DNA of 44,599 bases from a virus, in the IMG/VR virus record IMGVR_UViG_3300045253_000092, positions 1-44,599 of that record; one strand, written 5' to 3'. Below, piece by piece: positions 4,063 to 44,599 of the stretch; within the stretch, counting starts at the first letter, position 1, and each line of letters starts with the position of its first letter. Below the pieces are notes generated by a model. The model made no database searches. It was not told the origin of the DNA and saw only the letters and a program-made list of their open reading frames with translations. The position numbers and the translations under genes are program-made.

Positions 4063-4091
4063 AGAGTAGCAAATGGTATGTACCCTGTCAA
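4063..4091 (-). promoter_or_regulatory. Leftward early promoter (sigma70-type)
   Basis: On the minus strand: TTGACA (4091-4086), exactly 17 bp, then TACTCT (4068-4063). The -35 is perfect; the -10 keeps the TA and final T. Predicted start is near 4056, giving a leader of about 120 bases before the first gene at 3933. A copy of the GGTATGTACC palindrome (4075-4084) lies in the spacer, a classic place for a repressor to block RNA polymerase. Confidence 0.8.
4075..4084. promoter_or_regulatory. Putative operator, copy 1 (GGTATGTACC)
   Basis: Ten-base near-palindrome inside the spacer of the leftward promoter. Same motif as at 4149, 5811 and 11909. Confidence 0.55.
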
Positions 4092-4148
4092 TAGGCCACG
4101 ACGCCCGCTTCTCAATCCCTTACATCTGTCACACGGCACACTAGGTGT

Positions 4149-4158
4149 AGTATGTACC
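4149..4158. promoter_or_regulatory. Putative operator, copy 2 (AGTATGTACC)
   Basis: Nine of ten bases match the motif. It overlaps the ATG (4152) of the first rightward gene, 65 bp from copy 1, so the two copies flank the divergent control region. A weak -35/-10 pair (CTTACA at 4119, TAGGTG at 4142) would give a transcript with almost no leader. Confidence 0.45.
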
Positions 4159-4394
4159 GCGTGGCAGCACCACAAGAGAAGCGCTCCGCGAGGCATCGGG
4201 CGAGCTTGACGCTCGACCACGGGCGCATCCAGGAGATCCTACGCGGCCTCGACCGCGCCGCTCCCCTCAACGTCAAGCGCGCGGAGCTAAGACAGCTCGT
4301 CGGAGCTTGGCTCGTCGTCAACGCCAGGACCATCGACAAGGTGCCGCTAAGCCCCGCAGATGCCGCCAGGGAGCCGCGACGCCTAACAGGTTAG
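4152..4394 (+). CDS. Small basic protein, 80 aa, first rightward gene
   Basis: Starts at an ATG embedded in an operator-like site and ends at TAG 4392-4394. The product (MYRVAAPQEKRSARHRASLTL...) is Arg-rich with a predicted helix pair (HGRIQEILRGLDR and KRAELRQLVGAWLVV). No ribosome site is visible, which fits a leaderless message. Position opposite the leftward promoter is typical for a regulator, but no DNA-binding family is recognised. It could also be a spurious frame. Confidence 0.5.
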   Translation: MYRVAAPQEKRSARHRASLTLDHGRIQEILRGLDRAAPLNVKRAELRQLVGAWLVVNARTIDKVPLSPADAAREPRRLTG

Positions 4395-4733
4395 TACTTG
4401 GAAAAAGGTCATTCCAAAAAACCGTGTCAAGCCCCTACGCGGTCCCCTAGAATCAGTCACTTACAGTCGCCGCCGTCAGACCCCGTGCTACTCTACGCGC
4501 ACCCCCTAAATCCCTCAGACGCGCGCGCGCCCGGCTTCTAACTCTGAAGCCAACTGACGACGACGGGCAACAGACAGACCGCAGCAGCCGCCAGGAGGAC
4601 CGAGCGCAGCGGATGACCACCGCCGGACACGCAGCCCACGCGATCCGGCGGAAGAGCCGTGAACAACAAGAACACGGAACACCCCCTCCAGCCTGCGCCA
4701 CGACCTCGCAACAGAACACGGCGCAGCCAGCGA

Positions 4734-4771
4734 AGCCAGCCCGCGACCTGCCGGACGTCCGCGGGCTGGCT
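4734..4771. repeat. Perfect 12-bp inverted repeat (hairpin)
   Basis: AGCCAGCCCGCG (4734-4745) and its exact complement (4760-4771) around a 14-base loop. Very stable as RNA or cruciform. No T-run follows on either strand, so a simple terminator is unlikely. Confidence 0.8.
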
Positions 4772-4806
4772 GGTCCTGGAAGCTGCTGCGTGACCACAGA
4801 AGGACC

Positions 4807-4834
4807 GGAGGGCAACTGCTGTTGACGGCCCTCC
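4807..4834. repeat. 7-bp inverted repeat
   Basis: GGAGGGC (4807-4813) and GCCCTCC (4828-4834) around a 14-base loop, the same loop length as the stronger hairpin 36 bases upstream. May be part of one folded RNA. Confidence 0.5.
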
Positions 4835-5207
4835 TCTGACGAGCGAACGGCTGCTGAGCTACACCGGACGGCTTGCGAGTCTCCCACGGCGCCGGGTGCT
4901 ACGCGTCAGCGGAGCACAGCGCCGGTAACAGCGCGCGCGAGGGGTACGCCACAGCTTCCCCTCGGCTCCGCTCCGCTCCCCGCGCCACTGCCGAAAGCAC
5001 ACACACCCCCGTCCCGGACTTGCAGACGCCGCGGGCGGAAAGAAAGTCGCCCTACACATCGCCAATAGTTTCGCGGGTCCCCCCGGTTTTGCCGTTAGCC
5101 CGCGTGGCTTCGTCTCTTCGTTGTCGTAGTCAGGATTCAGGGCGCAAGGTGAGTGGTGCTCCGGATCGGGAGGTGTAGCGGACTCGCAACAGGAGTAGAA
5201 TGGAGCG

Positions 5208-5489
5208 GTGCTGTTCTTCGAGGTCATAGTCGTAGCGCTGTTGCTAGGACTTCACTGGAGGCTGTGGACGATGAGCAAGGAAGTGGACGATCTGACGGCG
5301 GCGGTGGCGTCGTTGACGCAGGCGGTGTCGGATGCGAGCGCGGAGCTGTCTTCACTGGCGTCGGCGCTGGTGGCGAGCCAGAGCGATCCGGCGGCGGTGG
5401 AGTCTCTGGCGGGCCAGGTGAGCGCGCAGGCGTCGGCGCTAGAGGCGGCAGTGGCGGCGGCGAAGCCGGCTCCTCCCGCGGCGCCGTAG
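5208..5489 (+). CDS. Small membrane-anchored coiled-coil protein
   Basis: From GTG 5208 the product is 93 aa: a hydrophobic segment (LFFEVIVVALLLGLHW, residues 2-17), then a Ser/Ala-rich coiled-coil (KEVDDLTAAVASLTQAVSD and onwards) and an Ala/Pro-rich end. An ATG at 5271 with a better ribosome site (GGAGG nine bases upstream) would give a 72-residue soluble coiled-coil without the membrane segment. Both starts are possible. Short proteins with this coiled-coil are common in phages; role unknown. Confidence 0.65.
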   Translation: MLFFEVIVVALLLGLHWRLWTMSKEVDDLTAAVASLTQAVSDASAELSSLASALVASQSDPAAVESLAGQVSAQASALEAAVAAAKPAPPAAP

Positions 5490-5500
5490 ATTCGGGGCCT

Positions 5501-5575
5501 CGTGGCCGCCGGATTGGCTCTGCGGGGTTCCCGGCAATTCTGCCGAGAAAACAGACGTTCGGTCCGGCGGCCACG
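5501..5575. other. Nested inverted repeat: 13-bp outer stem with inner hairpin
   Basis: CGTGGCCGCCGGA (5501-5513) pairs perfectly with 5563-5575. Between them lies a second perfect hairpin, CGGCA-ATTC-TGCCG (5532-5545). The whole fills the gap between two small membrane-protein genes. It is not a tRNA (no cloverleaf) and has no T-run. A structured RNA, a processing site or a site-specific DNA element are possible. Confidence 0.6.
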
Positions 5576-5597
5576 ATCTTAAGTGGAGGGCATCGCC

Positions 5598-5789
5598 ATG
5601 AACGTACTTGTCCTCATCGTCGTACTCTTCCTGCTCTTCGGCGGTGGCGGCTACTGGTACGGTGACGGCACGCAACGCTGGCGCCCCGGTCCCGGCCTCG
5701 GTGGCGGCATCGGACTGCTGCTCGTCGTGCTGCTGGTCCTGTGGCTGCTGGGCTACCTCGGCGGCGGCGGCACCTACCTTCACCGCTAG
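5598..5789 (+). CDS. DUF3309-like small membrane protein, 63 aa
   Basis: ATG 5598 with GGAGGG upstream. Two hydrophobic segments (residues 2-16 VLVLIVVLFLLFGG and about 41-58 IGLLLVVLLVLWLLG) flank a GYWYGDGTQRWRPGPG linker. The order membrane segment, aromatic-Gly linker, GGGIGLLL, second segment matches the small DUF3309 family, widespread in proteobacteria and their phages. Function of the family unknown. It could act on the host membrane early in infection. Confidence 0.7.
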   Translation: MNVLVLIVVLFLLFGGGGYWYGDGTQRWRPGPGLGGGIGLLLVVLLVLWLLGYLGGGGTYLHR

Positions 5790-5793
5790 CCCC

Positions 5794-5822
5794 TTGACAG
5801 CGGCGGCGTAGGTATGTACCAT
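5794..5822 (+). promoter_or_regulatory. Rightward promoter with operator over -10
   Basis: TTGACA (5794-5799), exactly 17 bp, TACCAT (5817-5822). The operator motif GGTATGTACC (5811-5820) covers the -10. Predicted start near 5829-5830 is at the ATG (5831) of the next gene, so the message would be leaderless. Confidence 0.7.
5811..5820. promoter_or_regulatory. Putative operator, copy 3 (GGTATGTACC)
   Basis: Identical to copy 1, overlapping the -10 of the rightward promoter. Confidence 0.55.
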
Positions 5823-5830
5823 CATCGGTG

Positions 5831-6229
5831 ATGGGTACGCCGTCGTTCAACGAGCTTATTAACGTGGCCGGCAAGGCGCTGGCGATGGAAGACGCGCGCC
5901 TGGAGGCGGCGCGGCTGCGCCGCGAGCGCAACGCCTGTCTCTGCGAGGTGGCCGAGCCGCCCGAGTATGACGTTGGGAGCGACGGCACGCAGCCGTGCTG
6001 GAAGCAGTGGGACGACGAGCATCGGGACGACGGCGTCGTTCCTGTGCGCAACCCGAAAGGCAACTGGTGTCCGACGTGCCTGCGCCGCGAGGAGCTACAC
6101 GAGGCATTCATTGCTGCCGGACGCTTGCTGTCGAGCCGAAAGGGAGCGCTCGCAAGCGCCTGTCGAGCGTTTCACCGCTGCCCGAAAGATCAACCGCTGG
6201 CGTTCATCGATGTGGAGCGCTCGTCCTGA
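5831..6229 (+). CDS. Hypothetical Cys-containing protein, 132 aa
   Basis: ATG 5831 (a GTG directly before it would add one residue). No ribosome site: the promoter predicts a transcript starting at the ATG. Residues 1-35 form a helix (FNELINVAGKALAMEDARLEAARLRR); then CLCE, PCWKQW and a WCPTCLRREELHEAF knuckle suggest a zinc site; a helix and a CRAFHRCP segment follow. No family recognised. First gene of the main rightward unit; its stop overlaps the next start (ATG at 6229). Confidence 0.65.
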   Translation: MGTPSFNELINVAGKALAMEDARLEAARLRRERNACLCEVAEPPEYDVGSDGTQPCWKQWDDEHRDDGVVPVRNPKGNWCPTCLRREELHEAFIAAGRLLSSRKGALASACRAFHRCPKDQPLAFIDVERSS

Positions 6230-6375
6230 TGGGACGCCTGCCGCACAGTTCGTTTCGGATCTCGCCCGAGGGCAAGAGGCTTCTCGGGCTGTTGGCGTTT
6301 CACCTTGGGATGTCTCGGACGCAGGTGTTGGAGCTTCTGGTGCGGGAGGCGGCCAGGTCGGTGGGAGTGTCGTGA
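6229..6375 (+). CDS. Ribbon-helix-helix (CopG/Arc-like) DNA-binding protein, 48 aa
   Basis: ATG overlaps the previous stop (TGATG). The product has the full ribbon-helix-helix plan: a strand HSSFRIS (residues 6-12), helix A PEGKRLLGLLAFHLG, a Met-Ser turn, and helix B RTQVLELLVREAARSVG. The length is right for the family. Such proteins dimerise and bind short palindromes, so it is a candidate ligand for the GGTATGTACC sites, but no direct evidence links them. Confidence 0.75.
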   Translation: MGRLPHSSFRISPEGKRLLGLLAFHLGMSRTQVLELLVREAARSVGVS

Positions 6376-6376
6376 G

Positions 6377-6541
6377 ATGGACGAGCGCAAGGGACGGCAG
6401 GACGTGCTAGCGGCACTGCGGCAGGCGACGGAGAGAATCCTGCGCCCGGCCGTGGTGGGACCGCTCACGCCTGCGGACCGGGAGCTGCTGTCTCGTCTCG
6501 AGATTCTGTGGCCGGATCCGAAGACTACGGAGGGGACATGA
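6377..6541 (+). CDS. Small hypothetical protein, 54 aa
   Basis: ATG two bases after the ribbon-helix-helix stop, ending in an overlap with the next start. Product begins MDERKGRQDVLAALRQATER and continues ILRPAVVGPLTPADRELLSRLEILW. Predicted two-helix protein. No family recognised; accepted because it fills the gap exactly. Confidence 0.6.
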   Translation: MDERKGRQDVLAALRQATERILRPAVVGPLTPADRELLSRLEILWPDPKTTEGT

Positions 6542-6741
6542 AGCTGACGAGCAAGAAGCGGGACAGTCTGAAGAAGAGCACCTTTGCCCTGCCCGGGGAG
6601 CGGAAGTATCCGATACCCGATGCCAGTCACGCCGCGAACGCGAAGGCGCGTGCGGAGCAGCAGTTCAAGGCCGGCCACCTGTCGGTGGGCGAGAAAGAGA
6701 CGATCGACGCCAAGGCCGACCGCAAGCTCCGGGGGAAGTAG
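6538..6741 (+). CDS. Small phage protein of the ALPGxRKYPI type, 67 aa
   Basis: ATG 6538 overlaps the previous stop (ATGA). The product has a conserved phage signature: a Lys-rich start (KLTSKKRDSLKKS), FALPGERKYPIPDASHAANAKARA, a Gln-rich helix and a basic end (KADRKLRGK). Proteins with this motif are common in phage genomes and usually lie near capsid or packaging genes. Their role is unknown; a nucleic-acid-binding or capsid-associated part is plausible. Confidence 0.75.
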   Translation: MKLTSKKRDSLKKSTFALPGERKYPIPDASHAANAKARAEQQFKAGHLSVGEKETIDAKADRKLRGK

Positions 6742-6744
6742 CCG

Positions 6745-7125
6745 GTGGCCGACGCAGAGCCGTTCGTTGTCCTGGCTTGGGCTCTCTTGGAGACCCTCCA
6801 GTGTCGCTTGGACAGGCCGGTAGATCAGCACGACGCCAAGCCGATCCTGCGGGCATCCAAAACCATCCACGGCCTGGAGATTCCTAGAGAGCCGCTCATC
6901 ACCGAGGTGGAACGCGCGCTATCGGTTAGGTTTAACGAGCGCAGCCGCGAGGACTTGGAACGAAGCCACGCCACCCGCGAGATGAAGGCCGACATTGGAC
7001 TCTTGACCACGCGGATGGCACAGCTACAGGGAGAGATCGATGCCCTACGACGAGGTGATGCACAAGTGGAAGGCGGGGAAGCTGCACTCGGGAAGCAAGA
7101 AGGGTCCGCAGGTGACGAGCCATAA
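6745..7125 (+). CDS. Hypothetical protein, 126 aa, helical
   Basis: GTG 6745, three bases after the previous stop. N-terminal half contains PFVVLAWALLETLQCRLDRPV and KTIHGLEIPREPLI; C-terminal half is a coiled-coil (EMKADIGLLTTRMAQLQGEIDALRRG). No family recognised. Its last 86 bases overlap, in another frame, the well-supported gene starting at 7040. Confidence 0.55.
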   Translation: MADAEPFVVLAWALLETLQCRLDRPVDQHDAKPILRASKTIHGLEIPREPLITEVERALSVRFNERSREDLERSHATREMKADIGLLTTRMAQLQGEIDALRRGDAQVEGGEAALGKQEGSAGDEP

Positions 7126-7219
7126 GCAAGCGGAAGCAATCATGCTCTCCGAGAAGCGGAAGTCCGAGGGCGGCAAGGCCGCCGAGTACAAGCCGAAGGG
7201 CAAGGGCAAGAAGCGGTGA
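7040..7219 (+). CDS. DUF6496-like small basic phage protein, 59 aa
   Basis: ATG 7040 with GGGAGAG six bases upstream. The product shows the typical signature of this small family: MPYDEVMHKWKAGKLHSGS, a KKGPQVTSHKQAEAIMLSEK core and a Lys-rich tail ending KPKGKGKKR. Strongly basic, so possibly nucleic-acid binding. Family function unknown. It overlaps the end of the previous gene by 86 bases, and its TGA overlaps the next GTG. Confidence 0.8.
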   Translation: MPYDEVMHKWKAGKLHSGSKKGPQVTSHKQAEAIMLSEKRKSEGGKAAEYKPKGKGKKR

Positions 7220-7536
7220 TCCGTCCGATGGAGATGCCGGCTCGGCGGCCGGAGCGGTGGGTGATCCACTTCGTGCCCGCCGCTCCCAAGGCTTGCCAGG
7301 GCTGTGGCCGGCAGTCCATCTATCCCATCGTCAGCATGGCGAAGACCTTCGGTCCGGCAGACTCCTACGAGCAGGCGCTCGCCCGCGTCGAGCAGAAGCT
7401 CAAGGCCGATCCGGTGTGGGCCTCGACGTTCTTCCGCGCGATGGGGCACGGACGCTTCTATCCGGTCCGCATCGACGCCTACGTGGAAATGCCGGACTTC
7501 TCCGAGGTGGCCCACCGCATCGAGGTGGCCGGATGA
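7216..7536 (+). CDS. Hypothetical protein, 106 aa
   Basis: GTG overlaps the previous stop (GTGA). Product contains a CQGCGRQ knuckle at about residue 28 and a basic/aromatic middle (SYEQALARVEQKLKADPVWASTFFRAMGHG). A mixed alpha/beta fold is likely. No family recognised. Confidence 0.65.
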   Translation: MIRPMEMPARRPERWVIHFVPAAPKACQGCGRQSIYPIVSMAKTFGPADSYEQALARVEQKLKADPVWASTFFRAMGHGRFYPVRIDAYVEMPDFSEVAHRIEVAG

Positions 7537-8039
7537 AGGAAGATCAGCCGCCAGCGCCTCTAGCAACGCCGCTGAGCTTCTTTCTGAGTAAACCGGAGTT
7601 CCAGGCCACCTATGCGCTCGCCTTCGCTCTGGAGGCCAGCGGCGAGGGCGAGGAGAGCCCGAGCTTCGGCGAGTCTTTGAAGGCCGCCATCCGCCGCCTG
7701 CACCGCGCCGGCTACGACTACGTGGGCCTGCGGATCGACGATCACGGCGGCATCGTGCCGAAGGGCGGTATCATTGAGCCAAAGAACGAGCTGTACTTGC
7801 ACATGCTCTCCCTCGGCGTCTCTCCCGACTACCGCCACGCCTGTGACGCTCTCGTGGAGCTTCTTGACCGCCACCAGATCCACGAACCACGCCTGCGCGA
7901 CCTCGCCACCTGGGCGCGTGATCTGGTCTACCGGCAGGCCAAGGAAGCTCCGGAGCCGCCGGATGAGTTCAAGCAGCAGACCGTAGAGGCACTCAACGCC
8001 GTGGGCATCGCGGCACTCGGCGAGGGGAGGAGTCATTGA
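7533..8039 (+). CDS. Hypothetical protein, 168 aa
   Basis: ATG 7533 overlaps the previous stop; the frame is open much further upstream, but that part is a shadow of the previous gene. Product begins MKEDQPPAPLATPLSFFLSK, with helices (YALAFALEASGEG, SLKAAIRRLHRAGYDYVGL) and a C-terminal helical half (YRHACDALVELLDRHQ, ARDLVYRQAKEAPEP). No family recognised. Confidence 0.65.
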   Translation: MKEDQPPAPLATPLSFFLSKPEFQATYALAFALEASGEGEESPSFGESLKAAIRRLHRAGYDYVGLRIDDHGGIVPKGGIIEPKNELYLHMLSLGVSPDYRHACDALVELLDRHQIHEPRLRDLATWARDLVYRQAKEAPEPPDEFKQQTVEALNAVGIAALGEGRSH

Positions 8040-8236
8040 AGAAGCGCTACGTCACGTCCGAAGTGCCGCTCACCGAGGAGCAGATGACCGAGCTGCACAG
8101 CCTGCGCATGGAGACAGACATGCCGTTCGAGATGAAGCTCAACGAGCTGGCCGGCGGCGGCGAGCACAAGCCGGGCGATCTCGTCGTCTCCTGGCAGCGC
8201 AACCGCATTCTCGTCACCGAGGAGCGCGAAGAGTGA
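8036..8236 (+). CDS. Small hypothetical protein, 66 aa
   Basis: TTG start overlapping the previous stop, with an excellent GGGAGGAG ribosome site that settles this rare start. Product begins with Lys-Lys-Arg after the initiator, then PLTEEQMTELHSLRMETDMP and a beta-like end (KPGDLVVSWQRNRILVTEE). No family recognised. Confidence 0.65.
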   Translation: MKKRYVTSEVPLTEEQMTELHSLRMETDMPFEMKLNELAGGGEHKPGDLVVSWQRNRILVTEEREE

Positions 8237-8511
8237 CTGACACCGGAGAAGGCTTCTCCCTCGTCCCCCGCGGCTCCCGGCTACTCGTCAAGAAGGATGA
8301 GAGCGAGGAGAAGATCGGCGGCATCGTCATCCCCGCCGAGTACCGCGACCGGCCCACCAGCGGACGCGTCGTCGCCATCGGTCCGGAGCAATCCGAGTTC
8401 GCCGTGGGCCAGCGCGTCATCTTCGGCCAGTTCTCCGGCATGGACCTGGTGACGAAGGCCGGCACGCAGTACCTTTTGGACGCGGATGAGATCCTGGGGA
8501 GCCTGCCGTGA
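8233..8511 (+). CDS. GroES-like co-chaperonin (first copy), 92 aa
   Basis: Predicted lid for host GroEL, the role shown for T4 gp31 in capsid folding. The cpn10 fold is clear: LVPRGSRLLVKKDE strand, KIGGIVIPAEYRDRP (mobile-loop region, with the IGGIVIP motif at about residues 32-38), SGRVVAIGPEQ, a GQRVIFGQFSG segment and a closing YLLDADEILGSL. Length is close to the bacterial 95-100 residues. GTG start overlaps the previous stop. A second, more divergent copy lies 194 bases downstream. Confidence 0.9.
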   Translation: MTDTGEGFSLVPRGSRLLVKKDESEEKIGGIVIPAEYRDRPTSGRVVAIGPEQSEFAVGQRVIFGQFSGMDLVTKAGTQYLLDADEILGSLP

Positions 8512-8708
8512 TCTGCGGTCGGTGCGGAGCTGACAAGCACAAGCTGTGCTTCAGCGGCGACGGCCGCGGCGGCTTTCATCCGTGGTGCCGAGAGTGCGAG
8601 GGAAAGTTCCCCTCGGCCGCCCAGCGAGAGCGCGAGTCTGCACGCGCCGAGGCTCGCACTCGCCGTGCGCAGTGCCAAGACGCCTTCACCAACGGACGGC
8701 GCCGATGA
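8508..8708 (+). CDS. Small zinc-ribbon protein, 66 aa
   Basis: GTG overlaps the first GroES-like stop. Residues 3-31 show CGRCGADKHKLCF and HPWCRECEGKF, two CxxC knuckles about 20 residues apart. The rest is a highly charged helix rich in Arg/Glu/Ala. Resembles small phage zinc-finger proteins; a nucleic-acid role is likely but unproven. Placed between the two GroES-like genes. Confidence 0.7.
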   Translation: MICGRCGADKHKLCFSGDGRGGFHPWCRECEGKFPSAAQRERESARAEARTRRAQCQDAFTNGRRR

Positions 8709-9082
8709 TCCCGCTCGATGACTCCAAGCTGGCGAAGCCACGGCCCGGCGAGCTGTGGATCCAGCGGGACGAGAATCACATCCGCGCCGTGGGCATCGTC
8801 ATCCCCGATCACGTCAAGCGCGGCGTGGAGCATCCCATCTCCACCGTCTTTGCCGTGGGCGTAGGCGTGGAGGACTTCAAGCCCGGCGATCGCGTTCTCG
8901 TCCGTCCATCTGCTGGGCGCATCATCCGCTTCGGCGAACGCGGCGAGCTGGTGCTGCGCGTCATCAAGCCCTCGGCGGTGCTGGCAGACGTGCTCACCGA
9001 GGATCAGGTACGCATCAACATCGAGGAGCATCAGTTTCGCGGCTACTACGTGCCGCAGGAGCTTGTGGTGGAGGCGGAATGA
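8705..9082 (+). CDS. GroES-like protein (second, divergent copy), 125 aa
   Basis: ATG 8705 overlaps the previous stop; the upstream open frame is a shadow. Residues about 10-90 follow the cpn10 plan: KPRPGELWIQRDE strand, an AVGIVIPDHVKRGVEHP mobile-loop-like segment, STVFAVGVGVEDFKPGDRVLV and an LVLRVIKPSAVLADV end. A 30-residue C-terminal extension follows. More divergent than copy one, so it may have a special task or form mixed rings. Call rests on pattern and position. Confidence 0.7.
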   Translation: MIPLDDSKLAKPRPGELWIQRDENHIRAVGIVIPDHVKRGVEHPISTVFAVGVGVEDFKPGDRVLVRPSAGRIIRFGERGELVLRVIKPSAVLADVLTEDQVRINIEEHQFRGYYVPQELVVEAE

Positions 9083-9357
9083 GCCGCGAGTGGGCAGCCG
9101 TAACTGACAAGGGTGTGCAGATAGGGCCTCTGTGCGAGACGCCTACGAAAGCCCTCCAAGACGCTAAGGATTGGTTCGATAGCTATTGGCGCTTGAGTCC
9201 CGAAAAGAGAAGGCCGCAAGACAATCCGGGCGAGCCCGTCCTGCACCTCATTCCTATTTGGGAATGGGATGATAAGAGCCACTGGATGACCGCTCTCAAG
9301 GATCGCTGTGGTGGCATCAAGTACTTGGCCCCCCCCGGCGCTGGATCGGAGACTTAG
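9079..9357 (+). CDS. Hypothetical protein, 92 aa
   Basis: ATG overlaps the previous stop (ATGA). Begins MSREWAAVTDKGVQIGPLCET and contains LQDAKDWFDSYWRLSPEKRR and VLHLIPIWEWDD. Trp-rich (five Trp). Codon use has more A/T in third positions than its neighbours, which may mark a recent arrival. No family recognised. Confidence 0.6.
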   Translation: MSREWAAVTDKGVQIGPLCETPTKALQDAKDWFDSYWRLSPEKRRPQDNPGEPVLHLIPIWEWDDKSHWMTALKDRCGGIKYLAPPGAGSET

Positions 9358-10008
9358 GTGGCCTGGGGCGTCAGCGCCAACCAGCAGAAGTCGCGCTGGC
9401 AACATGCCTTCGGCCTAGAGGAGCCGCAGCTCGTCGCCGCCTTTGAGGCGCTCGACGCCGACTCCATTGCCCTCTTCCAGAGCGTCTCTGCGCGCATCGG
9501 CTACGTGAAGTTCCAAGAGTACCCGGTGGAGACGTACAAGCGCGTCGCCCGGCTTGCCCTCTTCGATCTCTTCTCCGACAGGCCCGACGACTTCAAGGCC
9601 GCGAAGATGAACATGAAGATCGAAGACGTGGCCGGCTGGCGCACGCATCCCATGTATCCGCTCATGGTGGACGAGGTGAAGGCCGCCATGAAGGGGGAGC
9701 TAGAGGATGCCCGCGCCACCGCCGAGGTGCTGCGCGAGGACGCCACGCGCGCGGCCAAGACCCTGCGCAACGCCTCCCGCTACTCCACCGGCAAGCGGGA
9801 CAAGCTCAACGCCGCGCGGGATCTCGTTGACAGGGCGGACCCCAAAGTGCAGAAGCGGGAAGAGAAGCACGTCCTGGCGCTGGACGAGGGCACCATCGCG
9901 CAGCTCCACGCCGCGCTCGGGACGCTGCGCACCGCGGGTCATCTGCCGAGCGGTGAGGCCAAGGCGCTGGAGGCGGGCGACACCATCGACGCCGAAGTGG
10001 TGCCGTAG
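9358..10008 (+). CDS. Probable terminase small subunit, 216 aa
   Basis: GTG directly after the previous TAG. Likely recognises phage DNA and feeds the large subunit. It lies one short gene upstream of the large terminase. The product has an N-terminal helical region (EEPQLVAAFEALDADSIALF, YKRVARLALFDLFSD), a long central coiled-coil (residues about 110-140) and KRDKLNAARDLVDRADPKVQ, reminiscent of small terminases. No clear helix-turn-helix seen, so the call leans on position. Confidence 0.6.
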   Translation: MAWGVSANQQKSRWQHAFGLEEPQLVAAFEALDADSIALFQSVSARIGYVKFQEYPVETYKRVARLALFDLFSDRPDDFKAAKMNMKIEDVAGWRTHPMYPLMVDEVKAAMKGELEDARATAEVLREDATRAAKTLRNASRYSTGKRDKLNAARDLVDRADPKVQKREEKHVLALDEGTIAQLHAALGTLRTAGHLPSGEAKALEAGDTIDAEVVP

Positions 10009-10178
10009 TGGCGAAGAAGTGCAAAGACAAGCGGTGTTACGAGATGAAAATGGCCGCCGAATTATTTGCCTTCGGAGACGGTCTGCGCGCGTACCCATGC
10101 CCGGAATGCAAGGGGTGGCACCTCACTTCCCAGCGCGTTGAACAGTCGGCATGGGTGAAGCGTGCCGTCCGTCCCTAG
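10008..10178 (+). CDS. Small zinc-ribbon protein with CPECKGWHLT motif, 56 aa
   Basis: GTG overlaps the previous stop (TAGTG); ends 17 bases inside the terminase gene. Residues 1-20 start VAKKCKDKRCYEMKMAAELF; the core YPCPECKGWHLTSQR is a well-known phage mini-protein motif (CPxCxxWHLT). The two Cys pairs (C5/C10, C31/C34) probably bind one zinc. These proteins are common beside packaging genes; role unknown. Confidence 0.75.
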   Translation: MAKKCKDKRCYEMKMAAELFAFGDGLRAYPCPECKGWHLTSQRVEQSAWVKRAVRP

Positions 10179-11892
10179 CCACACCGAGGACTTCCGGCAA
10201 GAGCTGCTGGCCCTCGGGCGTAGCAGCCTCTACCTTTTCGCCAAGGTCATCCTCGGGATGGCCGACCTTACCGAGAGCCTGCACCTTGATCTGTGCTCGT
10301 TCTTAGAGGGAAGGAAGGGGCCGTGGCGCCGAGCCCTGGTCTGCGCGTTTCGCGGATCCTTGAAGTCCTCGCTCTGCACCATCGCTTATCCACTTTGGCG
10401 CGGGCTCTACATCCCCGGATACTCGACAAAGCTGATCGAGGGATCTGAAGACCTGGCGAGATCCAACCATTTTCGCAGTCACTACTACGACCGCTTCACC
10501 ACGGGCGACAAGGCGCAGTTCCTCTACTGGCTCTACTCGCATCGCATCCCCGACGACTTCCAGGGCTGGAGCGTCCATCAGATTCAGTTCAAGTCTCCCG
10601 TATCGGGGTCGCCATCGGTGTCTTACGCCGGCCTGGAGAGCAAACTAGAGGGTTACCACGGCGATCTGATCGTGCCAGACGATCTAGAGGGCGCTGATGC
10701 GCAGAACAGCGAAGCCCGCAACGATGCCGCCTGGAGGAAAGTGGCGCAGGCCACTCCACTGCTGCGCGACCCCCGCACGGGCCAGATTCTCGTCGTCGGC
10801 ACGCCGTGGGGTCCGTCGCCTCTCGTCTGGAAGATCCGCCGGTTCGACAAGGACGACGGCGGTAGCGGCACGCTGGACAACAAGAAGCGGGACACTTGGA
10901 AGGTCTGGTGGAAGCCCATCATTGGCGAGGACGGCAAGAGCGTCTGGCCGGAGCGCTTCCCCGACTCCGTGCTGCCCTCCCTCCAGATGGACCGGGCCAC
11001 CTGGCAGACGCAGTACCTCCTAGAAGAGCGGGCCGAGTCCACTACCGTCTTTGACATGGCGACCGTGGAGGCGGGCTTCTGGAAGTGGCGCGTGCCGGGC
11101 CAGCTCCTCGGCTATCCGGCCTACGAAGTGGACGAGGAGAACAACGACTTCAAGCGGGACAAAAAGGGCCGGCTCAAGCTCGCTATCAAGAAGGCCGATC
11201 CCCGCTACCTCCGCTACTACATCCACGGCGATCCCAAGCACAAGAGCGGGCAGAAGAAGCACGCGGTGGACGACCGGCCCGCCCGAGCGGCCATCGTCGT
11301 GGTAGGCGTTTCCGAGGACTCGCACGCCTTCGTCATGGAGGAGTGGTGCTCTCCTACTGCCGGCCTGGAGGAGTTCGCGGACAAGTTCTTTCACTTCTAC
11401 CGCCTCTACGCTCCCTATCGGGCCACGATGGAGCCCACCGGAGCGCAGAATTGGTTCTGGGCCTACGCCCGCGAGCTGGAGCGGGGGAAGTACCGGAACC
11501 TCCAGAGCCTCGGCCGCTGGGGCGCTCCGTCGCGCCGGTTGCCGAAGCTCACCTCGGTGCTGCTCGAATCCACCAAGAGCACGAAGAATAAGGAGGGCTG
11601 GATCATCGAGCAGCTCTCCTCGTGGTTCGACCTCGGCTTGCTCCACATCAGCGCCGACAAGCAGAACATTCGCAGCGAGTTAGCCGCGTTTCCCTCGCTC
11701 TCCACGCCGGTGGACTTGCTCGACGCCCTGTCCCACGGACCGCCGCTGTGGCAGCCGCCGGCCTCCACCGAGCTGACCATGACGCTCCAGCGCCGGCAGC
11801 AACTCGTCGCCATGCAGGCTGAGAAATACACCGGATACAGAAACCCCTGGGCGTCCGAGCCCGAGACGGGAGAATTCGACACCCCCAACTGA
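10162..11892 (+). CDS. terL: Terminase large subunit, 576 aa
   Basis: Motor and nuclease that packages DNA. ATPase part: Walker-A-like AFRGSLKSS (residues 62-70, a deviant P-loop as in many podovirus terminases), Walker B LIVPDDLE (170-177), coupling motif VVGTPWGP (212-219). RNase-H-type nuclease part: an Asp in YYIHGDPKHK (354-362), then a strand-rich core (RAAIVVVGVSEDSHAFVMEE) and TMEPTGAQNW (423-432). GTG start, overlapping the zinc-ribbon gene by 17 bases. Normal size. Followed by a promoter, so the head genes can be expressed separately. Confidence 0.95.
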   Translation: MPSVPSHTEDFRQELLALGRSSLYLFAKVILGMADLTESLHLDLCSFLEGRKGPWRRALVCAFRGSLKSSLCTIAYPLWRGLYIPGYSTKLIEGSEDLARSNHFRSHYYDRFTTGDKAQFLYWLYSHRIPDDFQGWSVHQIQFKSPVSGSPSVSYAGLESKLEGYHGDLIVPDDLEGADAQNSEARNDAAWRKVAQATPLLRDPRTGQILVVGTPWGPSPLVWKIRRFDKDDGGSGTLDNKKRDTWKVWWKPIIGEDGKSVWPERFPDSVLPSLQMDRATWQTQYLLEERAESTTVFDMATVEAGFWKWRVPGQLLGYPAYEVDEENNDFKRDKKGRLKLAIKKADPRYLRYYIHGDPKHKSGQKKHAVDDRPARAAIVVVGVSEDSHAFVMEEWCSPTAGLEEFADKFFHFYRLYAPYRATMEPTGAQNWFWAYARELERGKYRNLQSLGRWGAPSRRLPKLTSVLLESTKSTKNKEGWIIEQLSSWFDLGLLHISADKQNIRSELAAFPSLSTPVDLLDALSHGPPLWQPPASTELTMTLQRRQQLVAMQAEKYTGYRNPWASEPETGEFDTPN

Positions 11893-11908
11893 TGGTGTAG
11901 GAGACTTC

Positions 11909-11918
11909 GGTATATACC
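11909..11918. promoter_or_regulatory. Putative operator, copy 4 (GGTATATACC, perfect palindrome)
   Basis: The only perfectly symmetrical copy. It lies just upstream of the -35 of the head-gene promoter, a position that suits an activator or a looping repressor. Confidence 0.5.
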
Positions 11919-11923
11919 ATCCA

Positions 11924-11952
11924 TTGACACTCCAGCGGTCGGGGGCTACGCT
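11924..11952 (+). promoter_or_regulatory. Promoter of the head-gene block
   Basis: TTGACA (11924-11929), exactly 17 bp, TACGCT (11947-11952). Predicted start near 11959, downstream of the terminase stop. This leaves about 20 bases before a possible CTG start of the portal at 11979. Confidence 0.75.
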
Positions 11953-12047: not shown

Positions 12048-14132
12048 TTGTCCGCTATCTTCGGTCCCTCCAGTATCCCCACCCAAGAGCCCGTAGAAGA
12101 CGATCCTTCCTCAGTAGATCCGGGGGCGCTCGTCGGCAATCCCGATGGCTCCCTGGATCTGTCCGAGGAAGCGCTGGAGGATCTCACCCGCCAGCTCATG
12201 GATACCCTGCGTGCCCACGACGCGGCCATGAAGAGCCGCTGGGACCGCGAGGAGGAGATCGAGCGGGCCTACGCGATGATCCCGGATAGTAACCGGGGCG
12301 GCCTGGTGCCCGACGCGGCGCGGATGGTGTCCTCGATCACGCAGGCGTTCGTGGATCAGGCTTCGGCGCGTATCTCACGCGGCATCATGGAAGTGAAGCC
12401 GCTGATGAAGGTGGATCCCATCGTCTCGGCCGGGCAGGAAGGCCAGATAGCCGTAGACCTCGCCAAGAGCGCGGAGCAGTTCTACCAGTCCTACGTCATG
12501 GACGACCTGGACTTTGAGACGCTGCTGCCCATCGCCGTCAAGCGCTGCGTGAAGCTTGGCACCGCCGTAGTCCGGGCCATGTGGAAGACGAAGCGGCGGG
12601 CGTTCTGGACCGGCGGCACGCGTAAGGTCAAGGAAGTGGGCTACTTGGACGTGCAGATGCCGGAGAACCACAACGTGGTCTGCTGGCCGCTCAATGTCAT
12701 AGACGCCCAGGATGCGGTCATGTTCGGGCACCGCAACCATCTGACCGAGGGCGAGTTCCTGACCATCGCCGCCGGTCTCAACGTCCCCGCCGATCAGGTG
12801 GAGCAGATTCTCGCCGAGCACACGCCCGACGAGCGGGCGAAGAATCTGCTCAAGAATCAGGATATCAAGGTGTCTCGGGACGACGTTGCGGCGCACATCA
12901 CGCTCACCGAGCTGTGGTGTGACTACGCCCTCGGCGACGAGACGGAGCCCACGAAGTTCTGCGTGGTGCTCCACGAAGACACCGAACAGATTCTTTGGGT
13001 GGGCTACAACCGCCTCCGCTCGCAGAAGCATCCCTACTTCCCCATCCACTACCAGCGGGTAGACGGGAGCTTCTGGAGCAAGGGCGTCGGCCATGAGCTG
13101 CTGTACGTCCACGCCGCGGACTCCGCTTTCCGGAATCTGGAGATGGACAACCTGCGGGCCACGGCCGCGTGGGTCATGCTCTTCAAGGCCGGCAGCATGG
13201 CCGAGTCCCTGTCGGATCGCGTCTCGCCGGGCCAGCGGATCATCACCGAGAGCCCCGACGAGGACTTCGCCACCAAGCAGCTCGGCGGCGATCTGACGAT
13301 GCTCCAGGAGGCCAAGCAGGCCAACTACCAAGACGGCGTGCAGGTCACGGGGCTAGCCTCGGTGCTGATGGGCATGGGCGACCCGGCCATGAAGTCCGGC
13401 GCCTCGGCTACCGCCGTCGTCTCCCTCATCGAACAGGCCGGCAAGAAGTTCGGCGACGTGGACGCCACCGTGCGGGACGGACTGGAGGAGCTGTACATCC
13501 ACATCATGGAGACGGTGGCTCAGTTCGCTCCGGACGGCCTGTACTACACCTTCCTTGAGACAGCGGACGCTGCGCGCGTGCGCCTGCTCCGTTTCCTGCC
13601 GCCACAGGGCGATATCGCGCGAGTCTTCAAGATTCACGCGCAGGCCCCCTCGGCGGCGATGAACAAGGAGAGCTTCAAGGAGCGTCTGCTCGCCCTCTAC
13701 CAGCTCACCACGGCCCACATCAACCTCTACATGCCTCTCGCCATGCAGACGCTCCAGCAGAGCAATCCGGCTGAGATTCCGCGGCTCCAGTTCCAAGTCT
13801 GCCAGTTGCTCCAGAGCCTCTACGATCAGGTGATCGAGGCGCATGAGGTGCCCGGCGTCATCAACAACGCTCCCGACGTGGGCCAACAGGAGCCGTGGGA
13901 CCAGATTCTCAACCAGGCGCAGCAGCAAGTGCAGATGCTCCAGGGCCAGATGCAGCAGATGCAGCAGCAGCTCCAGCAGGCCCAGGCGCAGGGCACCGCT
14001 GCCAATCCCACCGTCATTCAGCCGGCCAATCCGCAGGGTAACGCGCCGCAGCAGGGTCCGACCGCTCCGCCGCCGCCGCAGGGCCAGCCGTGGCCTCCGC
14101 AGGTGCCGCAGCAGCAGGGGATGATGCAGTGA
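12048..14132 (+). CDS. Portal protein, about 694 aa (may start upstream at 11979)
   Basis: Forms the twelve-fold ring through which DNA enters and leaves. Large podovirus-type portal: N-terminal acidic stretch, EEEIERAYAMIPDSNRGGLVP, a long mixed core with WSKGVGHELLYVHAADSAFRNLEMDN, and a C-terminal Gln/Pro-rich tail (residues about 620-694, QMQQMQQQLQQAQAQG). The TTG at 12048 is the first usual start codon. However, the frame is open and looks protein-coding back to 11979 (reading LAKPTPEQLQTAADLAQ), where a CTG lies ten bases after GGAG and 20 bases after the predicted transcript start. Family call rests on size, position after the terminase and overall pattern. Confidence 0.85.
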   Translation: MSAIFGPSSIPTQEPVEDDPSSVDPGALVGNPDGSLDLSEEALEDLTRQLMDTLRAHDAAMKSRWDREEEIERAYAMIPDSNRGGLVPDAARMVSSITQAFVDQASARISRGIMEVKPLMKVDPIVSAGQEGQIAVDLAKSAEQFYQSYVMDDLDFETLLPIAVKRCVKLGTAVVRAMWKTKRRAFWTGGTRKVKEVGYLDVQMPENHNVVCWPLNVIDAQDAVMFGHRNHLTEGEFLTIAAGLNVPADQVEQILAEHTPDERAKNLLKNQDIKVSRDDVAAHITLTELWCDYALGDETEPTKFCVVLHEDTEQILWVGYNRLRSQKHPYFPIHYQRVDGSFWSKGVGHELLYVHAADSAFRNLEMDNLRATAAWVMLFKAGSMAESLSDRVSPGQRIITESPDEDFATKQLGGDLTMLQEAKQANYQDGVQVTGLASVLMGMGDPAMKSGASATAVVSLIEQAGKKFGDVDATVRDGLEELYIHIMETVAQFAPDGLYYTFLETADAARVRLLRFLPPQGDIARVFKIHAQAPSAAMNKESFKERLLALYQLTTAHINLYMPLAMQTLQQSNPAEIPRLQFQVCQLLQSLYDQVIEAHEVPGVINNAPDVGQQEPWDQILNQAQQQVQMLQGQMQQMQQQLQQAQAQGTAANPTVIQPANPQGNAPQQGPTAPPPPQGQPWPPQVPQQQGMMQ

Positions 14133-14296
14133 GGGGCACGTTCCAACTGTGGCGCAAGCGCGTCGTGAGGATGAACTGGAATCGCCGCCGCCTTCGCTCG
14201 CGAGGATTTCGTCCGGACTGGCGGATGGCGTACTCGCGGGACAAAAACCTGATCCTGCACCGCCTGGTGTGGGTGAGCCGAGGAGAGCGTATCTAG
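14129..14296 (+). CDS. Very basic small protein, 55 aa
   Basis: GTG overlaps the portal stop (GTGA). Product reads VRGTFQLWRKRVVRMNWNRR at the start and contains RSRGFRPDWRMAYSRDKNLI; about a quarter of residues are Arg or Lys. No Cys. Likely nucleic-acid or capsid-interior binding, but no family recognised. An internal ATG at 14171 is an alternative start. Confidence 0.55.
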   Translation: MRGTFQLWRKRVVRMNWNRRRLRSRGFRPDWRMAYSRDKNLILHRLVWVSRGERI

Positions 14297-14590
14297 ATGC
14301 CGTTTTGGGGCGAACTCGGCGGCCATCCCGGCTGGCAGTGGCTCTTCAAGGCGCCGGACTCTCCCGTGGTGAAGCGGATCGCCGAGTGCCATTCGCTCCT
14401 AGCCAACGAGCGGATCAACGAGCCCAGCAAGATCGCTTACCTCCGCGGCGTTCTCGCCACGCTCATGTGGCTGGAGCGACTGCCGACGTTGATGTACGCC
14501 GAGGAAAACAAGCTCACCGAGGAGCAGCAGCAGGCGGTAGACCGTCACGATACGCGCCGCAAGCTGGCGTGGCTGCCGAGGGTGTTTTGA
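14297..14590 (+). CDS. Hypothetical protein, 97 aa, head region
   Basis: ATG follows the previous TAG directly, with GAGGAGAG upstream. Product (MPFWGELGGHPGWQWLFKAPDS...) has a helical middle (VVKRIAECHSLLANERIN, YLRGVLATLMWLERLPTLM) and a charged C-terminus. No family recognised. Position between portal and scaffold suggests a minor head role. Confidence 0.65.
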   Translation: MPFWGELGGHPGWQWLFKAPDSPVVKRIAECHSLLANERINEPSKIAYLRGVLATLMWLERLPTLMYAEENKLTEEQQQAVDRHDTRRKLAWLPRVF

Positions 14591-14629
14591 CCGTCACTTC
14601 CCCGCTAGCCGGGCCGTGACACGGAGGAC

Positions 14630-15424
14630 ATGATGCCTGACGAGACAGTGTATCCAGACCCCAACGAGACGACGAGCGAAGCTCCCCAGCAGCCGGATCC
14701 GCGGGAAGTGGCCGCAGCGGCTTGGCAGAAGACCGAGGCCCTGGAGCAACGACTCAACCAGACGCAGCAGTGGGGCCATCAGAACGCCTCGCGGGTGCAG
14801 CACCTCGAAAGCGTCCTCGGCCAGTACGAGCAGCAGCGCCAATACGAGCAGCAGCGCTACCAGCAGGCCCGCGCACTGCCGCCGCCGCAGTACCCGGATC
14901 CCGAGGAGTACATCAACACTCCCGAGAAGATCCAGCAGGCGATCCAGGCCACTGGCGGCTTCGTCATGGCAAACGCCCTGGCGCAGATCGCTCCCCTCGC
15001 TCAGCGCATGGCCGCCTACGAGCAGCAGATGCAGCCCATCGTGCAGCAGGCCGCTCGTAGCGCCTTCGGCCAGGCCCGCGCCGCGCTCGCTCAGAGCGGC
15101 GTGGACGAACAGACCTTCGATGAGCTGGCCCCGCAAGTGTGGGAGCAGCTCAAGCGCACCCCGGCCCTCGCCGCTGATCCGCTGTCCGTGGCGCAGGCTA
15201 CGGTGGCCATCGGCGTGCAACAGGGCCGCCGCTTCAACGCTACCGGAAACAACGAAGCCCCTCCCCCCTCCATCGGCGTAGGCGGCGCGGGCAGTAACGC
15301 TCGGCGTTACGGCAAGCCCCAGGCCAGTCCCTACGTCCGCGAGGTGGAGAAACTGCTCGGCGTCCGCTTGAATGACAAGAGCAAAGCCGAGATGAATCAG
15401 ACCGTGCAGAGGTACAAAGGCTAA
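14630..15424 (+). CDS. Probable scaffolding protein, 264 aa
   Basis: Internal assembly guide for the procapsid, inferred from position just before the capsid genes and from composition: acidic start, Gln-rich coiled-coil (LEQRLNQTQQWG, YEQQRQYEQQRYQQ), an Ala-rich helical middle (residues about 105-190), and a basic C-terminal helix (EVEKLLGVRLNDKSKAEMNQ) such as scaffolds use to bind capsid protein. ATG-ATG start with GGAGG upstream. No sequence family recognised; typical scaffold length. Confidence 0.7.
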   Translation: MMPDETVYPDPNETTSEAPQQPDPREVAAAAWQKTEALEQRLNQTQQWGHQNASRVQHLESVLGQYEQQRQYEQQRYQQARALPPPQYPDPEEYINTPEKIQQAIQATGGFVMANALAQIAPLAQRMAAYEQQMQPIVQQAARSAFGQARAALAQSGVDEQTFDELAPQVWEQLKRTPALAADPLSVAQATVAIGVQQGRRFNATGNNEAPPPSIGVGGAGSNARRYGKPQASPYVREVEKLLGVRLNDKSKAEMNQTVQRYKG

Positions 15425-15945
15425 TGGAACTGCGCGAACGTGCCCCGGACAGAACGGCCCTTCCTCCCGTCCTCGTGGAGTGGGCCAAGGACAAGGGCTA
15501 TTTCCTCTCTCTCATCAACAAGCACGACGACATACAGTCGCAGCAGAGCTTCTACGAGCGCTTCGCCGTACAGTTGGAGGATCTGCCCGAAGAGATCCGC
15601 GATGCCGTCAAGAGGACGCGAGCGTTCGACACCAAGGCCGGCTATCTCCAGCGCGCGGACTGCTACGTGTGCGCGCAACCGCTCAGTGCCCGCGAAGACA
15701 TGGAGCGGCAAGCGGAGATGCGCCGGTCGGCGATGGAGTCCGAAGAGGCAGACCGCTCCACGCTGGAGGACATCATCAAGCAGACCTCCGGCGGCGTGGC
15801 TCACCTCGTCGAGAACAAGAATCAACCGGTGTCGGCGCACGCGATGCCCACCTCGGAGCTTCTGTCTCCGCAGCAGCGGGCGGCGCTCAAGGCGGCGGTG
15901 GACGCGCAGAAGAAGGCTCGGCAGAAGCAAGCGGCGGCAGACTAG
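15424..15945 (+). CDS. Hypothetical head-region protein, 173 aa
   Basis: ATG overlaps the scaffold stop (TAATG). Predicted helical: FLSLINKHDDIQSQQSFYER, EDLPEEIRDAVKRTRAF, a CYVCAQ knuckle at about residue 80, then a charged coiled-coil and a Lys/Gln/Ala-rich end. Could be a second assembly or minor capsid protein. No family recognised. Confidence 0.6.
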   Translation: MELRERAPDRTALPPVLVEWAKDKGYFLSLINKHDDIQSQQSFYERFAVQLEDLPEEIRDAVKRTRAFDTKAGYLQRADCYVCAQPLSAREDMERQAEMRRSAMESEEADRSTLEDIIKQTSGGVAHLVENKNQPVSAHAMPTSELLSPQQRAALKAAVDAQKKARQKQAAAD

Positions 15946-15957
15946 GGAGGCCACCAG

Positions 15958-16494
15958 ATGGCTTTCACGTATCCCAAACTGGAGCTGAAGGTAGTCGGTG
16001 CAAACGACGCCTGGCTCTCCTATCTCAAGAAGACGCTGCCGGAAGGCGGGTCGCAGACCTTCAAGGGCGGCGCGCCGCTGGTGTTTTCCAGCGGTCTGCT
16101 CATCGAGGCCACCTCGGCCTACAACCCGGGCAACCAGAAGTGCGCGGCCATTTCGACGGCGTCTGCCAGCGGCGTGACGAGCGCCGGCCTCGACGTGATC
16201 CTGGCGGCTCCGTTCCTGCTCATGGAGGTGAATCTCCTGGCGGCGGCGGCGGCCAGCCACACCTATGCGGCTGCCGACCTCGGCATCAGCACGGTGGGTC
16301 TTGCCAAGGCCACCAACCTCGCCGGCACCGGCCGTGACGGCTGGTATGGTGTCTCCGGCGGCACCGCGGCGCTGCACACCATCAGCAACATCACCACCTT
16401 CCAGCAGCCCGGCGTGGCGACCGTGGGCGCCCAGGTGGGCGATATCAACGCTCGCGTGCTGGCCTACTTCATCAGCACTGCAATCGACTGGTAG
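15958..16494 (+). CDS. Putative capsid-associated protein, 178 aa
   Basis: ATG with GGGAGG nine bases upstream, 15 bases before the major capsid gene. Beta-rich, Ala/Gly/Thr-rich composition (KGGAPLVFSSGLLIEATS, GVATVGAQVGDINARVLAYF), as in decoration or head-fibre proteins. No membrane segment and little charge. The role is inferred from its place directly before the capsid protein. Confidence 0.6.
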   Translation: MAFTYPKLELKVVGANDAWLSYLKKTLPEGGSQTFKGGAPLVFSSGLLIEATSAYNPGNQKCAAISTASASGVTSAGLDVILAAPFLLMEVNLLAAAAASHTYAAADLGISTVGLAKATNLAGTGRDGWYGVSGGTAALHTISNITTFQQPGVATVGAQVGDINARVLAYFISTAIDW

Positions 16495-16509
16495 GTAGGA
16501 GCCAACACC

Positions 16510-17427
16510 ATGCCATCTTTCGCCAACGTCCATCAGCTCTCCGAGTGGACCGACTACATCCAGATCGGTCTCCGCCAGGTGTACGAAGACACCATCCCGC
16601 AGATCCCGAAACAGTACGAGTCCTGGCTGCGCGAGGTGAAAGCCAAGGACTGGACCGAGAACAAGATCGTCAACACCGGCCTCGGCGCCATGCCCACCAA
16701 GACCGTGGGCGGCGACTTCTCGACCGACAAGAAGATCACCGCGACGAAGAACGCTTACTCGCTGACCGCCTACGGCCTGGGCGTCCTCATCGAGTACGAG
16801 TTGGTCGCGTGGGACAAGTACGACATTTTCACCGACATGACCAAGGAGCTGGCGAAGGCGACGGTGGATCGCCTCAACATCATCGCCTACTCGATCCCGA
16901 ACAACGCCTTCGGCACCACCACGGGCTACACCATCTACAACGGCGAGGCGATCTTCAAGAACAGCCACACCCGTCTCGACGGTGGAACGTGGAAGAACCG
17001 TCCGGACACCGACGTGTCGCTCTCCTACCTCGCTCTGCAACAGGCGCGGATCGACCTCGCCATCCTCCAGAACGAGCGCGGCCGGTACACTCCGGTGCGC
17101 CCGAAGACGCTGCTGTGCTCCGAGGCCAACCGCTGGATCGCCGACACCATCGTGAAGACGGACAAGCGGCCCGGCACCGCGGACCACGACATCAACACCG
17201 TAGCGAGCTGGGGCATGAGCGTGGAGTCCTCGCCCTTCCTGACCACGGACGAGAACTTCTTCGTTTTCGGTCCCAAGGACAACGTGCAGATCGAGCTGCG
17301 CATGGGCCATGAGCCGCAGTACCGGCAGGACTACGACGTGCGCAACTGGAATCAGATCATCTCGTGCTACATGAGCGTCGGCATCGCCGTCCTGCACAGC
17401 CAGGGAGCTTGGGGGTCAGCCCCCTGA
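16510..17427 (+). CDS. Major capsid protein, 305 aa
   Basis: Expected shell protein of the head. Position after the scaffold, a GTAGGAG-type ribosome site, high GC at third positions and size fit. Sequence features compatible with the HK97-like gpT/Mu-type major head subunits: an N-terminal helix region, the segment SLTAYGLGVLIEYELVAWD with DRLNIIAYSIPNN (long spine-helix region, residues about 95-130), YNGEAIFKNSHTRL, and a C-terminal beta part with KTLLCSEANRWIADTIV and FVFGPKDNVQIELRMG. No separate protease gene is seen. Confidence 0.85.
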   Translation: MPSFANVHQLSEWTDYIQIGLRQVYEDTIPQIPKQYESWLREVKAKDWTENKIVNTGLGAMPTKTVGGDFSTDKKITATKNAYSLTAYGLGVLIEYELVAWDKYDIFTDMTKELAKATVDRLNIIAYSIPNNAFGTTTGYTIYNGEAIFKNSHTRLDGGTWKNRPDTDVSLSYLALQQARIDLAILQNERGRYTPVRPKTLLCSEANRWIADTIVKTDKRPGTADHDINTVASWGMSVESSPFLTTDENFFVFGPKDNVQIELRMGHEPQYRQDYDVRNWNQIISCYMSVGIAVLHSQGAWGSAP

Positions 17428-44163: not shown

Positions 44164-44599
44164 TTACAGCTCCGCTGGCAGGCCGGAGGCGTCTGCGATC
44201 ACGAGCACCGGCTCGACGCGATGTAGCGCAGCCATGCGCCGCACCAAGTCCTGCATGCTGATCTGGAGCGCTTCGACGGTGGGGCGTAGGGCATCCCCCG
44301 CGGCAGCCCACGCGGCAGCCCTCCCGGCATCCCCCGCGGCATCCCACGCGGCATCCCCCGCGGCAGCCCACGCGGCAGCCCTCCCGGCATCCCCCGCGGC
44401 AGCCCACGCGGCAGCCCTCGCGGCAGCCCACGCGGCAGCCCTCCCGGCATCCCCCGCGGCAGCCCACGCGGCATCCCTCGCGGCAGCCCTCCCGGCATCC
44501 CACGCGGCATCCCACGCGGCATCCCCCGCGGCAGCCCACGCGGCATCCCTCGCGGCAGCCCACGCGGCATCCCCCGCGGCATCCCACGCGGCATCCCTC
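44164..44599 (-). CDS. Ala-rich 4-residue repeat protein, C-terminal part
   Basis: Continuation of the gene at 1-564 across the window ends. It reads the same four-residue repeat ([16 protein letters not shown], with AG breaks where the DNA has CCCGGC), then leaves the repeat near 44290 into [20 protein letters not shown] and [20 protein letters not shown], stopping at TAA 44166-44164. The closing part is an amphipathic helix plus a beta strand. Other frames here give repeats such as MPRG but cannot be joined to a start or end with normal sequence. Confidence 0.75.
44291..44599. repeat. 12-bp tandem repeat array, right end
   Basis: Twenty-five full 12-bp units (44299-44598) plus one partial unit before and one base after, same consensus as the left end. 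Together with the left part at least 33 complete units. Short-read assembly often stops in such arrays, which explains the window ends. Confidence 0.95.

Follow-up and report, generated by a model that had tools for sequence, protein, structure and literature searches.

The 44,599-base window analysed here, one whole IMG/VR virus record (IMGVR_UViG_3300045253_000092), carries four copies of the 8-base palindromic core GTAYRTAC at candidate promoters, and we think it fairly probable that these boxes are the operators of a 48-residue ribbon-helix-helix (RHH) protein encoded by the phage itself (6229-6375, + strand, predicted fold). The core matches at exactly four places in the window (starts 4076, 4150, 5812 and 11910) against 0.30 expected, and none of 100 shuffles reached four. 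The proposed regulator-operator pair can be tested, and it belongs to an uncultured phage for which the collections searched gave no close relatives.

Four GTAYRTAC boxes at predicted promoters

A sequence-only reading of this DNA had described four copies of GGTATRTACC at the phage control points. Counted against 100 shuffles of the window, the 10-base form was found exactly at 4075, 5811 and 11909, where none was expected. The copy at 4149, AGTATGTACC, differs from it by one mismatch, and a count of four holds only for GTAYRTAC, which describes the four sites better. The many further matches inside genes that could have undone the pattern did not appear, the core being confined to these four sites; one more single-mismatch match to GGTATRTACC lies within a long gene at 33343. 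With one mismatch allowed in the core, 16 matches were found in the window vs 15.9 expected, which is the chance level, and no weaker boxes stand out. Among the 64 palindromic cores of the form NNNYRNNN, GTA headed the ranking for over-representation (Poisson P 0.0007, uncorrected for the 64 tests). By our own gene list, which puts the non-coding fraction at 0.101, each of the four cores falls in non-coding DNA; for the core at 4150-4157 this placing presumes that the adjacent 80-residue gene starts at GTG 4161, as with ATG 4152 the core overlaps the gene start. The boxes are single and spread over 7.8 kb, and a second core sought at 10-14 bp was found beside none of them.

Promoters of the form TTGACA-17-TANNNT occur exactly three times on the two strands of the window (-4091, +5794, +11924), compared with 0.023 expected per simulated window (300 first-order Markov simulations), and each of them carries one exact palindrome. 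The chance of three random sites all falling within -55..+5 of these promoters is 7e-8. Box 1 (4075-4084, GGTATGTACC) sits inside the 17-bp spacer of the predicted leftward promoter PL (4063-4091, - strand), a consensus match with TTGACA at 4091-4086 and TACTCT at 4068-4063, and is centred at about -23.5. Box 3 (5811-5820, GGTATGTACC) ends in the TACC that opens the -10 (TACCAT) of the predicted rightward promoter PR (5794-5822, + strand; TTGACA, 17 bp), with its centre at about -13.5. Box 4 (11909-11918, GGTATATACC), a perfect palindrome and the sole perfectly symmetric copy, lies upstream of PH, the predicted promoter before the head genes (11924-11952, + strand; TTGACA, 17 bp, TACGCT), with 5 bp between the box and the -35, and is centred at about -45.5. 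The link of three of the four sites to such promoters, and their placing in a spacer, over a -10 and upstream of a -35, are thus as the sequence-only reading had them. Box 2 (4149-4158, AGTATGTACC, exact core 4150-4157) overlaps both the weak -10 TAGTAT (4148-4153) of a candidate weak promoter, P80 (4126-4153, + strand; read from the sequence as CTGTCA, 4 of 6 in the -35, 16 bp, TAGTAT), and ATG 4152 of the 80-residue gene. Measured relative to a start assumed 7 bases after the -10, the centres of Boxes 1, 3 and 4 are separated by 10, 22 and 32 bp, which on a 10.5-bp helix gives them a phase range of 1.0 bp (P 0.027, post hoc).

The 48-residue protein and mycobacteriophage cassettes

The gene for the 48-residue protein lies directly behind the first gene of PR and would be transcribed from that promoter. 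Its putative ATG at 6229, in a frame open from 5995, overlaps the stop of the preceding gene (TGATG). That preceding gene (5831-6229, + strand) encodes 132 residues, or 133 from GTG 5828, in a frame clearly the best of six, and its product had no family match in Pfam, PHROGs or NCBIfam. The candidate ATG at 5831 begins 8 bases past the -10 of PR, and the PR message is therefore probably leaderless.

The AlphaFold2 model of the 48-residue protein (pLDDT 87) has a strand-helix-helix fold that superposes on Arc and CopG, its strand being extended in the monomer model though not called as a strand. Foldseek placed Arc and TacA in its first rows and also found CopG, at weak E values of 0.6-2. VIA-align gave Z 5.9 to 4 over 40-48 residues, modest values for a small helical protein (Z < 8), with chains of an S. 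islandicus dimeric protein, CopG, Arc, CopASO, TacA, AtaR, NikR and ParG; most of these rows are RHH proteins by name and some we take to be so. The assignment of the protein to the RHH fold comes from this predicted structure alone. The Arc repressor of P22 is among the closest solved folds (1baz, 1par, 1b28). Arc controls a single operator region lying between two promoters, whereas the window has four boxes at four places.

Comparison with other genomes gave independent support, with the same core beside RHH genes. Scanning IMG/VR for TTGACA-N11-GGTAYRTACC-NT returned 14 loci, seven of which were a mycobacterial cassette in which GGTATATACC boxes, two or in one case three, stand 12 bp apart, the first supplying the TACC of the -10, ahead of a gene of about 134 residues. 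The other seven lacked an adjacent second box, and the hidden Markov model (HMM) of the cassette protein matched no RHH gene in them. At one locus (L037) the next gene encodes an Arc-like RHH protein that matches phrog_6506 and is present in 62 phage records, in many of which it is labelled an Arc-like repressor. Over its promoter region, another locus (L043) matches two Mycobacterium abscessus prophages at 89-95%, and it has a 28-base stretch in common with 12 M. smegmatis phage records. When loci were instead chosen by the protein, fetching 12 of the 62 records picked as different phages, 10 of the 12 showed two GTAYRTAC cores 12 bp apart at the cassette promoter, ahead of the genes. The flanks of these paired cores vary between phages (GGTATATACC, TGTATATACG, CGTATATACG, TGTATATACA). 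The two others, Philonius (L057) and Microbacterium phage Hendrix (L059), had no GTAYRTAC core in the stretch fetched.

Paired-box scans yielded 9 and 14 loci, together comprising nine mycobacterial loci (eight viral, one Mycobacteroides), one VapBC-like locus and at least three loci within apparent ribosomal protein S12 genes, the remainder being unassigned. All nine mycobacterial loci encode the phrog_6506-type RHH protein, eight at once and the ninth with more flanking DNA, in counts that are not independent events because the cassettes are related to each other. Across 13 whole records (seven box-chosen, six protein-chosen) the pair was present in every one; eight had no other core and five had one elsewhere. 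In mycobacteriophages the core thus accompanies the RHH gene, local autoregulation is the natural reading of these sequences, and we propose GTAYRTAC as the operator for mycobacteriophage Arc-like repressors. Literature text searches at the level of listings (GGTATATACC, GGTACATACC, mycobacteriophage RHH/operator, phage Arc-like repressor) found no paper naming this operator.

The window resembles these cassettes (Majeke gp56, DillTech15 gp67, prophi104-2) in having the core at PR as they do at the cassette promoter, and in gene order, with one or more short genes followed by an RHH gene of about 50 residues with an overlapping start, matching 5831-6229 and 6229-6375. In Majeke, a phage also reached via the protein, TTGACG-N11-GGTATATACC-GT sets box and promoter in the same register as in PR, and at several mycobacteriophage loci the box overlaps the -10 (TACCGT, TACAGT) as at 5811. 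Alignment places R10 and S/A8 of the strand in common between the 48-residue protein and the mycobacteriophage family; the strand bearing them faces DNA in Arc and CopG. The resemblance has its limits: mycobacteriophage boxes are confined to the cassette, except that 5 of 13 records have a single core elsewhere, whereas the boxes of the window are dispersed, and a DNA methylase adjoins the cassette in most mycobacteriophage loci seen. What links the two is the operator core, the cassette order and the predicted fold, not demonstrated descent.

The cassettes themselves (L037, L043, L050-L061) have changing first genes (phrog_8485, phrog_6718, phrog_8611 and others), run opposed to the direction of their neighbours and mostly have a DNA methylase as neighbour. 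They have the look of exchangeable modules that regulate themselves, and conceivably of toxin-antitoxin-like pairs.

Proposed regulation and alternative explanations

From this arrangement we infer the binding, repression, timing and any effect at PH that follow. PR would transcribe the 132-residue gene followed by the RHH gene. With rising amounts of the RHH protein, its dimer would bind Box 3 over the PR -10, repressing its own synthesis; at Box 1 in the PL spacer it would shut off the leftward recombination genes, and it would also bind the box at P80. Repression at 4075 and 5811 is likely, because polymerase should be blocked by a protein bound within PL or across the PR -10. At PH, a dimer on Box 4, on the same helical face as in PL and PR, could help or hinder polymerase. 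Activation at 11909 is only a possibility, drawn from one box centred at -45.5 that could also repress or have no effect.

Several observations weigh against the assignment of the boxes to the 48-residue protein. The protein had no RHH family match in Pfam (including RHH_1), PHROGs (including phrog_6506) or NCBIfam, and the HMM of the mycobacteriophage proteins does not match it; hhalign gave a probability of 4.6%. The mycobacteriophage boxes are paired 12 bp apart, while those of the window are single with no pair. In Mesorhizobium sp. J18 (L076:4972-4993) two GGTATATACC boxes 12 bp apart precede a VapBC-like pair, read by eye as an AbrB-type VapB and a PIN VapC, so other proteins may use this sequence, and an RHH reader cannot be deduced from the box alone. 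Nor was any close relative found in which to check conservation of the boxes within the phage's own group: searches of IMG/VR via the terminase, the 330-residue protein at 17472-18464 and the 80-residue protein found none, and neither did a terminase search of genome_contigs or megablast of 10000-34000 against phages. A three-row terminase alignment led to 29 distant loci, only one of which (L009) holds GGTAYRTACC, and a scan for the Box 1/Box 2 arrangement gave no matches.

The earlier claim that one regulator reads all the boxes is well supported by their rarity, position and comparison. Of the two candidates it had put forward, the 48-residue protein gained ground, with its RHH fold, its gene behind the box at 5811 and the same core before mycobacteriophage RHH genes. 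The other is the 80-residue protein behind Box 2 (4152-4394, + strand, or shorter from GTG 4161), which might be a divergent-operator repressor acting on PL and its own gene and additionally on PR and PH. The start of its gene is overlapped by Box 2, with Box 1 at a distance of 74 bp inside the divergent promoter; the frame is coding-like, and in the model an extended stretch is followed by two helices. Against this, the model reaches a pLDDT of only 66, the few chains that Foldseek and VIA-align ranked for it included neither an RHH protein nor another convincing DNA-binding match, and the protein had no family match above cut-off in Pfam, PHROGs or NCBIfam; relatives were sought, including in IMG/VR, and none were found. 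An RHH assignment was tried for it by sequence and by fold and was unsupported, and its gene is not behind PR. We regard its control of the boxes as improbable, and the sequence-only reading gains no support on this candidate. A host regulator, for example of the GntR type or an AbrB-type antitoxin, could also read the boxes and let the phage sense its host. The paired boxes before the Mesorhizobium VapBC-like pair favour such a factor; the GntR-type consensus is GTNTANAC, and both GntR and LexA motifs of the host were considered. The phage RHH gene behind one of the boxes, and the recurrence of the same box-RHH arrangement in phages, make this explanation quite unlikely. That the boxes reflect chance, or promoter sequence in which the TAC of the box is merely part of a -10, is very improbable indeed. 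The PR -10 does begin with the TACC of its box, but the positions differ among the promoters (-13.5, -23.5, -45.5), which sets the box apart from the promoter elements, and four cores stand against 0.30 expected.

A further question concerns Box 4. RHH proteins act mostly as repressors, and Boxes 1-3 could be RHH repressor operators while Box 4 is idle or repressive, for instance by blocking alpha-subunit contacts, with no early/late switch. This variant, compatible with the 48-residue protein as the regulator, has in our view a substantial chance of being correct, if short of an even one. The -35 of PH is perfect and its -10 equals that of PL in quality, and SvtR and others are described as RHH repressors (PMC5569661). 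Yet Box 4 alone is perfectly symmetric, and its offset from the positions of the other boxes is two to three helical turns, within the post hoc phase range given above. The larger alternative, in which the 48-residue protein is the phage's whole switch, its single same-face boxes at four promoters shutting the early leftward genes and its own gene and turning on the head-gene promoter, strikes us as rather unlikely. The same low standing attaches to its corollary, that a cassette seemingly self-regulating in mycobacteriophages became here a genome-wide early/late switch. If PH were activated, this would be a very small early/late switch for a bacterial phage.

Archaeal viruses provide a partial parallel. 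SvtR of SIRV1 and AvtR of AFV6 are RHH regulators that repress their own genes and bind several sites on the viral genome; the SvtR sites include a structural-gene promoter, and AvtR both represses and activates (PMC5569661). They share with the proposed regulator the character of small viral RHH proteins with several viral sites, as the distribution of the boxes in the window would suggest for it. They differ in acting with archaeal promoters, on other operators and by oligomerisation along DNA, whereas the boxes of the window lie in bacterial -35/-10 promoters.

Genome context

The leftward genes on the PL side (561-2358, - strand) comprise an ERF-type annealing protein (561-1472) and a RecE/exonuclease VIII-like nuclease (1444-2358). 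The + strand encodes terminase (phrog_38), portal (phrog_1216), major capsid and tail genes. The terminase large subunit (10162-11892, + strand) is the last gene before Box 4, and the genes behind PH (12048-17427, + strand) run from the portal (12048-14132) through the major capsid protein (16510-17427). No integrase, RNA polymerase or DNA polymerase was seen among the proteins scanned, in a scan that covered part of the genes only.

Upstream of the terminase, 8233-8511 encodes a GroES-like co-chaperonin (Pfam Cpn10, E 4e-13), and in vir526, a distant relative, the corresponding place is taken by a 10 kDa chaperonin gene. Between the 80-residue gene and the next, some 750 bases (4395-5150) hold no clear gene, with low codon scores in all frames; an Rfam search that included this stretch gave no match. 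Within the leftward gene at 2355-2948, a GGCGGCGTAGGCGGC-type repeat at 2440-2640 gives an Ala/Tyr-rich stretch. The record ends have a 69-base word in common and no exact terminal repeat, which does not amount to evidence of a circular genome. Both ends (1-130 and 44280-44599) are built of a GCGGCATCCC/GCGGCAGCCC repeat, and a - strand frame reads across them, encoding 12-residue-type repeats.

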